Positions 42,137 through 47,700 of a DNA stretch of 64,000 bases are shown here, one piece after another. The notes under the pieces are model-generated. The model was not told where the DNA came from. It saw only the letters and a program-made list of their open reading frames with translations, and did not search any database. The DNA comes from Hericium rajendrae (Eukaryota; Basidiomycota; Agaricomycetes; Russulales; Hericiaceae): positions 1,798,001-1,862,000 of the forward strand of contig CM065878.1 of NCBI GenBank assembly GCA_033439255.1, read 5' to 3'. Both the position numbers and the translations under genes were made by a program. The number at the start of each line of letters is the position of its first letter. The first letter of the stretch is position 1.

Positions 42137-45100
42137 ATGGCACCACCTCCCAGCCCTTCCGCACCCCTTCAGGCCGATTCGGGCACTGAGGGCCCTGCCG
42201 CAGCATCCGGACGGGCGTCTCGCGCCATCGAGACCGTCAAGAGCGCCGTGCGCACGCCAGACAGCGAGCTCAAACGATGGAGGCGGACGTTCGAGGGCAA
42301 CGCGAAGACCGTCGTAGATGGGGAGAAGTGCGCCTCGTTCTTTTGCGTGATGACAACAGCTGACGGCTGACCTTTGCAGATTTCTGGACCCGGAGCAGTT
42401 CGTGAACGCCATCGCGCCGTCGGGCGATCTGACGCGCATTGGCCGCGCGCAGTTCGCGACGCTGTTTCGCGTCGCGGACTCGAGCAGGCGCGGGCTGGTG
42501 TCGTGGGACGACTTCACGGTGTTCCAGACGCTGCTCAAGCGGCCGGATGCGGACTACTGGATAGCGTTCCAGTACTTTGATGTGTGAGTTGAGGTCATCT
42601 ATTTGCGGATGCACGCTGACACGTAGAATGTTTGCAGTGATAGCTCCGGAACTATCACCTTCGATGAGTTCAAGAACGTGTTTCAGGCTAACATTGGGCC
42701 GGATGCGATACCCTTCAATTTTGACTGGTGCGTCCGGTTGTAGTATGGTGTGCATTGCGGGGCTGATGTGATTGGGGCGCAGCGACTGGGTTAAGCTCTA
42801 CCTTGGAAAGAAGAACGGCACTCATGTTCTTGGATGTGCGTTCCGTCACCGCTTCTGGAAACACTGTTCTGACGAGTTGTCTTGCACAGATGGCGAATTC
42901 ACGCAATTAATGAAGGGCCTTCAGGGCGAGCGACTCCGTCAAGCATTCAAGTTCTTTGACAAGGATCAGGACGGCTTCATTCGTCCTGACCAGTTCAAGA
43001 GGATCATTCTGGTTGGTGCATGTCCTCAGATTGTAGCTCATCGTGCTCACTCCATCATCTTCAGGAAATTGCTGGACACAAACTTTCGGACGCTGTGATA
43101 GACAGGTTACCCACGTTGTGCACACTTAGCCCAGGTGGCAAGATATCCTATTCTGAGGTTATCGCTTTCCATAATGTCATTAGAGGTGGGCAAACATGCA
43201 AACTATACATAATGGATGACATAAGACCGTTTTCTGAATCGTAGAAATGGACATGGTCGAACGGTACGCACACCTGTAGTGAATTGCTGCCTGTTGCCTA
43301 GGTTGATCATGACTATAGCGTCCTACGCGAAGCAACTGCGAAGACCAAGGACGGACGCATCGACCAGACCGACTTTCTCAATTACGCGTCATCGACCTCG
43401 CGCTACTCGCTCTTCACGCCCATGGAGGCGTCCATCATCTTCCACTTTGCAGGGCGCGGTCTGAGCTCACAGCGCCTCGCGCTGATCGACTTTGCGCAGC
43501 TGCTTGACCCGCGGTGGAAGGCGCCTGGCGACGTGGCTGAGCCGACAGTGAAGGGCTTCACCGCGTTATCGGTGATGCACGATGTCTTCCACTCGGCATA
43601 CAACTTTGTGCAAGGAGGTGAGAGGACCTTGAAGGCTTCAGGTTTCTGTGGAGTGCTAAATAGGCTGCACAGGAGTGGCCGGTGCATTCGGTGCGACGAT
43701 CGTATACCCTATAGATCTTGGTATGTTGGTTTCCTGTTATTTTCCCCTGCTTGATCTGATTGGTATTGGTTGCTTTCTCGGCGCCCAGTCAAGGTACGAT
43801 AGTCAGATCACAGCTCACTGCCAAGGCTAACAGATTGATACCAACTTATGCCAATAGACTCGGTAAGCATACCTACATTCTCGATCGAGTTCAGCGACTC
43901 TAAATGAGTGTTTCGGCATATAGCATGCAGAACCAGCGCAGCACAGTTGTTGGCCAGCTTTTGTACAAGAACAGCCTGGACTGTGTAAGAAAAGTACTTC
44001 GTAATGAGGGCTTCCTCGGATTCTACCGCGGACTCGGTCCGCAGCTCATTGTACGTTACCATTCCACATCAGATTGGATTGCGGGAGCTGACGGCGGGAC
44101 CGCGACAGGGCGTGGCGCCCGAGAAAGCGATCAAGCTCACCGTCAATGATCTCATCCGCGGTAGAGCGAGCGACCCGGAAACAGGAAGGATCTCTCCCAT
44201 ATGGGAGATAGTTGCGGGTGGAACGGCTGGTGGATGCCAAGTGGTACGTCGTACACACCTCCATTATATTTCCGCTTTTCCTGAGCACGGTAACAGATCT
44301 TCACGAACCCACTGGAGATTGTGAAAATTCGTCTTCAGGTGCAAGGTGAAGCGGCCAAGGTGGAGGGAGCTGTCCCGAAAGGCGCGGTACATATCGTGCG
44401 ACAGCTCGGTCTCATCGGTTTGTATAAGGGCGCGAGCGCTTGTTTGCTTCGCGACATTCCATTCTCTGCGATCTACTTTCCTGCGTACTGGCATCTGAAG
44501 CGCGACGTGTTCAATGAGGGTTACCGCGGGAAGCAGTTGTCGTTTGGTGAGACGTTAGCGTCTGCGGCCATCGCGTACGTACTTAAATCATTAATATGTG
44601 GAGCATGTGCTGACGCCAACAACACTAATCTTTTTGCATCGCCTTTCTGCGACATCAACGCTGTGTTACATCTCGACTGATGTTGATTGCATTGTTTGGG
44701 ACGGAAAGTGGCATGCCCGCTGCGTATTTGACAACGCCTGCAGGTATGTGGGATGCATGTTGCATAGTGACAGCGGAACTCACGGGGAACAGACGTTGTC
44801 AAGACGCGCCTGCAGGTGGAAGCCCGAAAAGGCCAAACGAACTACAAGGGGCTCACGGATGCCTTCGTGAAAATATGTATGTCATTGGTTGCACAGTTCC
44901 ATTCCCGCGATCAATGACTCCCACCAGATCGGGAAGAGGGCTTCCGCGCACTATTCAAGGGCGGACCAGCTCGGATTATTCGAAGCAGCCCACAATTCGG
45001 GTTTACCCTTGTTGCATACGAGTATTTGAACAGAGTGCGTTCTTTTGATGTGAATCTCGGCATAGACGCGCTGACGCACTGCCTCCTGACTGCCTCGCTG

Positions 45101-45326
45101 ACAGTTCTTGCCGGTAAGTGGATGACCACGCTGCAGTTTGATTATCGTGGGTGATTGATGCATTCTTTCGTAGTACCCGTGGAAAGAGCAACCGCGGGAA
45201 GTCGAGACGGCACTCACATCGCGTCCGGACGAGATTGCGACGACGCGGGCGCGGAATGCGCTCAAGATCATGCTGGATGTGCATGGCGACTTTGGGAGGA
45301 GGGCATCCGGTGGGAGCGGCAACTGA
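42137..45326 (+). CDS. AGC1: Mitochondrial aspartate/glutamate carrier Agc1, 694 aa
   Basis: Nineteen exons splice to exactly 2085 nt. The N-terminal half is a calcium-sensor-like region with EF hands ([38 protein letters not shown]). The C-terminal half is a mitochondrial carrier with three repeats whose signatures are [28 protein letters not shown] and [14 protein letters not shown]. Aralar/citrin-type carriers exchange aspartate and glutamate across the inner mitochondrial membrane and feed the malate-aspartate shuttle. Exons include two 5-nt microexons (43789-43793, 43858-43862), a 9-nt microexon (45105-45113) and a 19-nt exon (43245-43263). The microexons are required to complete conserved sequence, and the phase sum closes only with them. 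The last ~40 residues ([20 protein letters not shown]) match the family tail. No frameshift. Confidence 0.95.
43789..43793 (+). other. AGC1: 5-nt microexon 1 of AGC1
   Basis: TCAAG lies between introns 43721-43788 and 43794-43857. It supplies two bases of the Val codon and the whole Lys codon of PIDLVKTRMQ, the first carrier signature. Confidence 0.85.
43858..43862 (+). other. AGC1: 5-nt microexon 2 of AGC1
   Basis: ACTCG lies between introns 43794-43857 and 43863-43923. It supplies Thr and two bases of the Arg codon of the same signature. Both flanking introns have GT..AG ends and normal lengths (64 and 61 nt). Confidence 0.85.
45105..45113 (+). other. AGC1: 9-nt microexon of AGC1
   Basis: TTCTTGCCG encodes Phe-Leu-Pro and joins EYLNR to YPWKEQP. 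Flanking introns are 45035-45104 and 45114-45173. Confidence 0.8.
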
Positions 45327-45960: not shown

Positions 45961-47700
45961 ATGAAGTCGATTGTTTTTGGTCTTTCCCTCGTCGGCGCGG
46001 CTGCCGCCCAGGTCGCGAACGGCGTTTCCATGGTTCAGCTGAGCCAGATTATGAGCTCCGCGTCAGCATCCGCATCCGCGGCACCCAGTGCGTCCGCGGC
46101 GTCCAGCGCATCCGCGGCGTCCAGTGCGTCTACGCCTGCCAGTGCCGGCAACAACCAGTCCGGCGCTTCGTCCAGCGCCGCTGCGTCCGGCTACGACAGT
46201 TCTGCTGCTGCAAGCTCGTCCGGATACGGCCAGCCCCAATATACCTCGAGTCCCGCGTACGGCGCGCCCCCGTCGCAGTACACCCCCCCTCCCGCGACAT
46301 ATGACCAGAGCTCCTACTCGTCCTTCATGGGCGGAGGATACAAGTCGATGGACTGCGGCTATGGCTACAGCAAAGGCTCTGACGGCTCCTGCCAACAGCA
46401 GTCTTGGGTATGCCGTTCCGTCTGAATGCCGTGTTATATGTACTAATCGCCATTTGTCCATCACAGTATCAAACCCAAGGCTGCTACCAGACGACCATCA
46501 TCAACAATCAGTGCGTTTCCTAATTGGGTTCGTCAGTGTCGGCTTCTAAATGACCGTTCCTCGCTCTGTAGGCAGTACTGCTACAGCCAAGCCGCGCAGA
46601 CGGTCACCAAGACTGAGCAGGTGACGGTCACCAACTACAACACGGTCACCCAGACCATGACGGAGGTGAAAGCAAAATTGGCGTATCGTATTTTTTGTGC
46701 TAATATTTCGCGCAGACCAAGACCGTGCCGACAACTGTCACCATGACCGATATCCAGACCAAGGTGCAGACTGAGACCGATACCAAGACGGAGATCATGA
46801 CGTCGACGATGCTCGTCCCTACCACCCGCGTCTGGGTCTCTACCGAGATCATTGACAAGACCAGCACGGTTCAGCACACGCTCACCGCTACGGAGACCAA
46901 GACCCAGCTCCAGACGTACACTGCGACCGCGACCGAGACTGACACCGCCACTCAGTCCGTGACGGAGACCGATCTGATCACCAAGACCGTCGTCCAGCCC
47001 ACGACTTATACCAGCGTCTGGGTGAGCACCAAGGTCATCGACAACACCAAGACCGTCGAGGAGACGCAGACTGCGACCATGACGGACTTCATGACCAAGA
47101 CGCAGATCAACACGGCCACCGAGACCGACACGGTGACCAAGGTCTCTGTCAGCACCTTGGTTCAGCCCACCACGTACACCTCCGTCTGGGTTTCCACGCA
47201 AGTCGTCGACAACGTGCGTGCCATCATTATCATTTAAGTGCCTTAGCTCGATTGACATGCGTGGGATTTTTCGCAGACGAAGACGGTCATGAACACTGTC
47301 ACGTCGGTCGTCAGCACGGACCATACCGTCCTGCAGACGCAGACCTTGACCGACACCGCGACCGCGACGCAGACAGAAACCGCTACGGCGACGCAGACGG
47401 TTGCGGAGACCGCTCTTTCCCAGTGCCTTGGCCAGGTCCGTGCATTTCTCGTGTCTCGCCAAGTCGTTTCATGTGCTGACGCTCCCACAGTGCAAGTCGC
47501 AATGGGGGTTGATGTCTGGTAACAGCAACTCCTACAACACTTACGCTTCCGCGACGCAGACCGCTGACGCATCCTCTGCCACCCAATACGGTTATGGTTC
47601 GAGCGGCGACTCGTCCGCTGCGCCCGCAGCAGCGTCGAGTAGCTCCTCCAGCGACTCTTCTGGATCTTCCGGTTCCTCATACGGCTCTTCAGGCTACTGA
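45961..47700 (+). CDS. Secreted Ser/Thr-rich wall or adhesin-like protein with repeats
   Basis: Starts at ATG 45961 with a signal peptide (MKSIVFGLSLVGAAAAQ). A Ser/Ala-rich stretch (~residues 30-80) follows, then a Tyr/Pro/Gly segment and a short Cys-containing module (MDCGYGYSKGSDGSC, GCYQTT, QYCYSQ). The long middle part is Thr-rich with three imperfect repeats built on PTTYTSVWVSTKVIDNTKTV. The tail has ETALSQCLGQ and CKSQWGLMSGNSN and ends in Ser/Gly/Tyr repeats (SSGSSYGSSGY). There is no C-terminal hydrophobic segment, so no GPI anchor is predicted. Thr density suggests heavy O-mannosylation and a cell-surface or matrix role; this is inference. Introns lie near 46.41, 46.51, 46.66, 47.21 and 47.44 kb. 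Confidence 0.82.

Follow-up and report, generated by a model that had tools for sequence, protein, structure and literature searches.

Introduction

Exons of a few nucleotides have been described in fungal P450 genes. A 1-nt exon backed by RNA reads lies in the PKG motif of Fusarium CYP621A genes, nearly all deposited transcripts of which are wrong at that exon, and an 8-nt exon lies in the I-helix motif of a Phanerochaete P450 (PMC12940212). In Phanerochaete chrysosporium, nearly one-third of the P450s have tiny exons (2-10 aa, the shortest of 6 bp), and introns of 45-55 bp are frequent (PMC1184071, available text). A 1-nt exon has also been published in plants (PMC8831610, available text), and the Peptidase M1 genes of land plants and of Zygnema contain adjacent microexons of 5 and 12 nt, one or both of which had been missed by annotation and which were confirmed by RT-PCR sequencing or RNA-seq (available parts of PMC8831610 and PMC11096116); gradual intronisation was proposed by the authors for this pair (PMC11096116, same part).

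Carriers have been singled out for intron positions common to ancient paralogues (accessible portions of PMC9120149 and PMC13385207). The accessible portion of PMC13385207 finds human carrier intron positions only exceptionally in fungi and does not contain the word microexon; that of a Cryptococcus paper names microexons only as a mapper setting (PMC3990503). Our literature search, covering the leading matches and few subscription papers, returned no fungal gene with consecutive 5-nt exons and no microexons recurring at the carrier signature.

Here we describe an AGC-type mitochondrial aspartate/glutamate carrier gene of Hericium rajendrae in which two consecutive 5-nt exons encode part of the first carrier signature, together with the intron positions of the other carrier genes of this genome (46.8 Mb, 19 contigs). 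The gene lies in a window of 64,000 nt (assembly GCA_033439255.1, contig CM065878.1, positions 1,798,001 to 1,862,000, forward strand), whose coordinates are used below unless another contig is named.

Results

Gene model and identity

The joined exon model has GT-AG ends at 18 of 18 introns and a frame that closes. The initial annotation had proposed 19 exons summing to 2085 nt and closing in phase, including one of 19 nt at 43245, for an aspartate/glutamate carrier; we reproduced the sum base for base, confirmed the 19-nt exon, which the frame needs, and found the identity borne out by the domains of the protein. EF-hand families score above cut-off and three Mito_carr stretches are matched with 242 bits (Pfam), PX[DE]XX[KR] signatures are present in all three carrier repeats, and residues 45-328 align with the N-terminal calcium-binding domain of Aralar1, the best PDB match (4p5x, E 3.4e-43). 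Judged by this domain make-up, the 694-aa product is a carrier of the AGC (SLC25A12/A13) type. A genome search with the residues from exon 8 onward returned the AGC locus itself and otherwise weaker, distant carrier matches; with one strong locus, a single AGC-type gene was thus found in the genome. The exon 8 peptide had no relative in viral and prokaryotic sequence collections.

Exons 7, 10, 11 and 18 (19, 5, 5 and 9 nt) of the model are internal, flanked by GT-AG introns and no longer than about 30 nt, and so have the length and splice sites of microexons. The PDB alignment pairs the exon 7 peptide with Aralar1 residues MELVRKI and, as 19 is not a multiple of 3, skipping this exon breaks the frame. 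Intron 14 (44575-44708) measures 134 nt, the other 17 introns 49-70 nt; it is about twice the usual length, yet no coding sequence is apparently missing there. Just downstream of the gene, on the same strand, an ATG-opened frame (45961-46480) starts MKSIVFGLSLVGAAAAQ and is then Ser/Ala-rich; it looks like the gene of a secreted protein.

Table 1. The AGC-type gene, its short exons and neighbouring introns (window coordinates), and candidate small exons in other carrier genes (L numbers; contig given). Fractions are shuffles reaching the real score.
Feature	Position	Strand	Remarks
AGC-type mitochondrial aspartate/glutamate carrier gene	42137..45326	+	19 coding exons, 2085 nt CDS including stop, 694 aa
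Exon 7, 19 nt	43245..43263	+	most of EMDMVER
Exon 9, 48 nt	43673..43720	+	ends within signature: ..YPIDL + first base of V
Intron 9, 68 nt	43721..43788	+	GT-AG, phase 1; CTGAT 29 nt before 3' end
Microexon 10, TCAAG	43789..43793	+	completes V, encodes K; unique chain, shuffle null, aligner recovery
Intron 10, 64 nt	43794..43857	+	GT-AG, phase 0; CTAAC 27 nt before 3' end; at hot spot after signature Lys column
Microexon 11, ACTCG	43858..43862	+	T + two bases of R; unique chain, shuffle null, aligner recovery
Intron 11, 61 nt	43863..43923	+	GT-AG, phase 2; own GT and AG ends
Exon 12, 127 nt	43924..44050	+	resumes at ..R MQNQRS..
Intron 17, 70 nt	45035..45104	+	
Probable microexon 18, TTCTTGCCG (FLP)	45105..45113	+	in frame included or skipped
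Intron 18, 60 nt	45114..45173	+	
L023 candidate, ATGTT, 5 nt	C2 4394683-4394679	-	repeat 1 signature; 0/150
L023 candidate, ATTTGAC, 7 nt	C2 4393663-4393657	-	repeat 3 signature; 0/150
L023 candidate, 20 nt			outside signature; 0/150
L036 candidate, CGTCAAG, 7 nt	C7:1092673-1092679		repeat 1 signature; 1/150
L044 candidate, 11 nt	C11:1078158-1078168		repeat 2 signature; 1/150
L037 candidate, 17 nt	C7:2012756-2012740		repeat 2 signature; 0/150, narrow (19.9 vs best shuffle 19.6)
L027 candidate, 18 nt			kept; 0/150
L049 candidate, 21 nt			kept; 0/150

Two consecutive 5-nt exons in the first carrier signature

In the initial annotation the motif PIDLVKTRMQ was pieced together from an exon ending at 43720, TCAAG, ACTCG and an exon starting at 43924. 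These boundaries proved exact, and one chain restores the motif. We enumerated splicing chains across 43673-44050, allowing GT-AG introns of 40-140 nt, zero to two internal exons of at most 60 nt and movable outer splice sites; a single chain among 11,246 yields the carrier signature, the one with two 5-nt exons, and when GC donors are allowed as well it is the same chain, now 1 of 115,571. When the 203-nt gap between exons 9 and 12 was shuffled preserving dinucleotides, the outer splice sites staying in place and one or two exons totalling 10 nt being inserted, VKTR appeared in 0 of 20,000 shuffles and the lenient pattern [VIAL][KR][TSN][RK] in two of 20,000. The frame stops after 386-429 of the 694 residues if either of exons 10 and 11 or the pair is left out, and also if any one of introns 9-11 is retained, and the Pfam score of repeat 1, 90.8 bits with VKTR, falls to 68.9 bits when VKTR is deleted in frame and to no match for the skip product. 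We consider it confirmed that the two 5-nt exons lie in the sequence as annotated, do not arise by chance and are obligatory for the frame. Frame and motif also provide indirect support for their inclusion in mature RNA, where the string predicted across the exon 9/10/11/12 junctions would be GTCAAGACTCGCATGCAG. No match to the branch-point pattern YTNAY was seen 8-45 nt from the 3' end of intron 11, as is also the case for four other introns of the gene.

Both exons were recovered independently by a spliced aligner that matches DNA to a carrier-repeat profile. Into this profile went 17 repeats from other carriers of the genome and AGC repeats 2 and 3, but not AGC repeat 1, and the 13 introns of the gene other than 9-11, 17 and 18 supplied the splice-site weights. 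This aligner places the two 5-nt exons correctly to the base; masking the acceptor costs 18.5 bits for exon 10 and 12.5 bits for exon 11, and none of 150 shuffles put through the full aligner reaches the real local score (36.3 vs 28.7 for the best shuffle). Its last exon runs three bases beyond the donor, to 45037, and its profile stops before exon 18, so that it is silent on the 9-nt exon. By analogy with the plant and Fusarium work it is plausible that gene predictors would miss the 5-nt exons; the homology-driven spliced aligner does find both.

An intron hot spot at the signature of other carriers

We aligned 38 carrier loci, AGC1 and 37 further ones, so that the genome holds at least this many. 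A C19 match with bit scores equal to those of C12 is not among them; the two carrier loci, C12:43927-44405 and C19:43394-43872, lie on different contigs with identical match scores, pointing to a segment duplication or to contig ends that overlap. Intron positions were counted in the 35 genes with scores of 100 bits or more (L029, L039 and L041, below 100 bits, were left out), some of whose parses score 100-112 bits and may hold errors, and introns in insert columns were unplaced.

Of 200 introns placed on profile columns in these 35 genes, 44 fall in the eight columns of the PX[DE]XX[KR] signature, where 18.6 are expected; leaving out AGC1 gives 40 of 191 vs 17.8 expected. Conserved columns ease the detection of small exons, so that part of the clustering of microexons at the signature is ascertainment, and the intron enrichment persists once introns beside small exons are removed: when both flanking exons exceed 21 nt, 30 of 159 introns are in the signature vs 14.8 expected (p 0.00015). 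A proto-splice preference is insufficient as the whole cause, since flanking-base preference, as estimated outside the signature, would give 16.1 signature introns vs 44 seen; weighted permutations reach 44 in 0 of 3000 cases (mean 19.8, maximum 35). For introns of mitochondrial carriers, the signature forms a hot spot in this genome.

Two or more signature introns occur in six of 105 repeat copies, belonging to five genes, the highest number being the three in AGC1 repeat 1. Eight introns, distributed over repeats 1, 2 and 3 and seven genes, share one exact place, phase 0 after the signature Lys column, mostly AAG|R; in one of these eight copies, L044 repeat 2, Met and not Lys precedes the intron. 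A pile-up of eight anywhere was obtained in 54 of 3000 weighted permutations, and the Lys-column position alone is therefore only suggestive.

The signatures of four other carriers (L023, L036, L037 and L044) are candidates for being cut by exons of 5-17 nt (Table 1), and the candidate exons of L036, L044 and L037 all end at the phase-0 site after the Lys column. These come from 15 other small-exon calls (at most 21 nt), each compared with 150 shuffles; with 16 tests, results of 1 in 150 are weak. Calls that we regard as unsupported or unclear, with the number of the 150 shuffles reaching the real score, are the 12-nt call in L014 (10), the 21-nt and 17-nt calls in L021 (3 and 10, the latter absent from the local parse), the 16-nt call in L024 (12), the 11-nt call in L031 (14) and the 3-nt call in L047 (all 150, and absent from the local parse); a 15-nt call in L021 was reached by 0 of 150, but the exon is absent from the local parse. 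Longer introns were rejected as a mark of microexons, as there is no carrier-wide difference (32 vs 178 introns, medians 57 vs 56, p 0.42); in the AGC-type gene alone, the seven introns that flank exons 7, 10, 11 and 18 do exceed the remaining eleven in length (p 0.008).

Discussion

Mechanism and origin

We think it very likely that exons 10 and 11 are constitutive microexons, that introns 9-11 are removed by intron definition, and that the arrangement originated in repeated insertion or retention of introns in one motif. As short GT-AG introns, like those of the surveyed carriers generally (medians 56-57), introns 9-11 would be recognised across the intron and not across the exon, which would make exon length irrelevant to the pairing of splice sites. 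A short intron can be recognised as one unit, which relieves exons of a minimum length, and worm data fit this: microexons with very short flanking introns are independent of PRP-40, which the authors read as intron definition (PMC8378409, available text). The three introns probably leave one by one, because the U1 and U2/U2AF complexes could hardly hold both sites of a 5-nt exon together. As for the evolutionary route, a single short motif that cannot change would have gained or retained introns on several occasions, and we infer that the gene has two 5-nt exons because the signature, as an intron hot spot, repeatedly took up or kept introns.

A wider proposal seems to us rather doubtful: that the signature is a general hot spot in the fungal lineage, that the Lys-column intron predates the internal triplication or the earliest carrier duplications, and that later insertions shattered the motif into exons of 5-17 nt in at least five carriers. 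Were a lineage-wide hot spot real, it would mean that an entire class of exons has been missed in the metabolite transporters of fungi and, if it is old, carrier genes would bear on the spread of introns in the earliest eukaryotic paralogues.

Alternative readings of the short exons

The short pieces could be chance matches within one 203-nt intron, the signature being encoded otherwise or being degenerate in a decaying gene. Such an intron would have GT-AG ends, and one of 134 nt exists in the gene, but the 203-nt intron, which exceeds the 140-nt limit of our enumeration and was tested apart, shifts the frame and leads to a stop after 403 residues. No other chain that we examined gives the motif, shuffles almost never do, the 694-aa protein is otherwise intact and the genome search returned no further AGC copy, and we regard this reading as highly improbable. 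We find it scarcely credible, too, that a nested or recursive intron (a stwintron or ratchet site) stands here in place of microexons. Three introns do lie within 10 coding bases, and stwintrons occur in fungi (PMC6616335, available text), but introns 9, 10 and 11 each have a complete donor and acceptor of their own, and the microexons start with TC and AC, not GT, so that neither start regenerates a 5' splice site; we rejected a stwintron or recursive splicing unit on these grounds. An origin from introners was rejected as well, as 43721-43923 matches the genome once at E up to 1, at its own position. It is also unlikely, in our judgement, that the microexons are regulated, with inefficient or conditional inclusion, so that skipping or retention would give stop-containing transcripts, nonsense-mediated decay and a tuned carrier dose. 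The early stop after every tested skip or retention would suit such a role, as would the glucose-dependent 20-nt microexon in Trichoderma Xlr2 (PMC11121469, available text) and the detained introns at plant microexons (PMC8831610, available text), but stops are expected for most exons that are not a multiple of 3 and for short introns, and are thus not specific to regulation. Constitutive inclusion of exons 10 and 11 is the reading that we adopt.

For exon 18 the alternative is that introns 17 and 18 form one 139-nt intron and that the protein reads LNRYPWKE. The initial annotation had joined LNR to YPWKE through a 9-nt exon whose coordinates hold; its status as an exon is probable only, as skipping it stays in frame. 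A single 139-nt intron likewise keeps the frame and has a precedent in the 134-nt intron of the same gene, some open 9-nt exon arises in as many as 1,734 of 20,000 shuffles of the gap, and including exon 18 raises the Pfam match by 1.7 bits only (93.0 vs 91.3). On the other hand, exon 18 is the sole in-frame internal exon of 3-57 nt that its 139-nt gap allows, the two introns that it implies have ordinary lengths, and a 9-nt exon encoding hydrophobic-hydrophobic-P is rare by chance (9 of 20,000 shuffles). Carriers usually continue with hydrophobic residues at this place. Exon 18 is probably genuine, and the uninterrupted 139-nt intron correspondingly improbable; if the exon is included, the predicted RNA string is AACAGATTCTTGCCGTACCCG.

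Comparison with known systems

The locus offers a natural test of the minimum size of neighbouring exons under intron recognition, with six splice sites around 10 coding bases, and the signature encoded by exons 9-12 is expected to be essential. In intron-rich fungi, the annotation of carrier genes may go wrong at exactly the family-defining residues, and good genes would then look broken. The initial annotation had placed two 5-nt exons near the lower limit of exon recognition; the two exons stand and the limit does not, as exons of 1 nt have been published (PMC12940212; PMC8831610, available text), and with fungal exons down to 1 nt among them, 5 nt is not an absolute floor.

In the fungal P450 genes of Fusarium and Phanerochaete, too, ultra-short exons fall within a conserved protein motif (PMC12940212); their microexons are single, whereas the AGC-type gene has two in a row, in another family, and these are predicted from the sequence. 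P. chrysosporium, a white-rot basidiomycete, has P450s that resemble the AGC-type gene in combining short introns with tiny exons; the account covers P450 genes and, in its available text, does not mention consecutive 5-nt exons (PMC1184071). Peptidase M1 genes share with it two neighbouring microexons inside a conserved domain, but those are found in plants and algae and the second has 12 nt, while here the host is a fungus and both have 5 nt (PMC8831610 and PMC11096116, available parts). Shared intron positions, as seen in the carriers here, are also a property of mitochondrial carrier paralogues (PMC9120149 and PMC13385207, accessible portions). Microexons in fungi and adjacent microexons in plants make this a known kind of gene structure, of which the consecutive 5-nt pair in a fungal carrier is a new variant.
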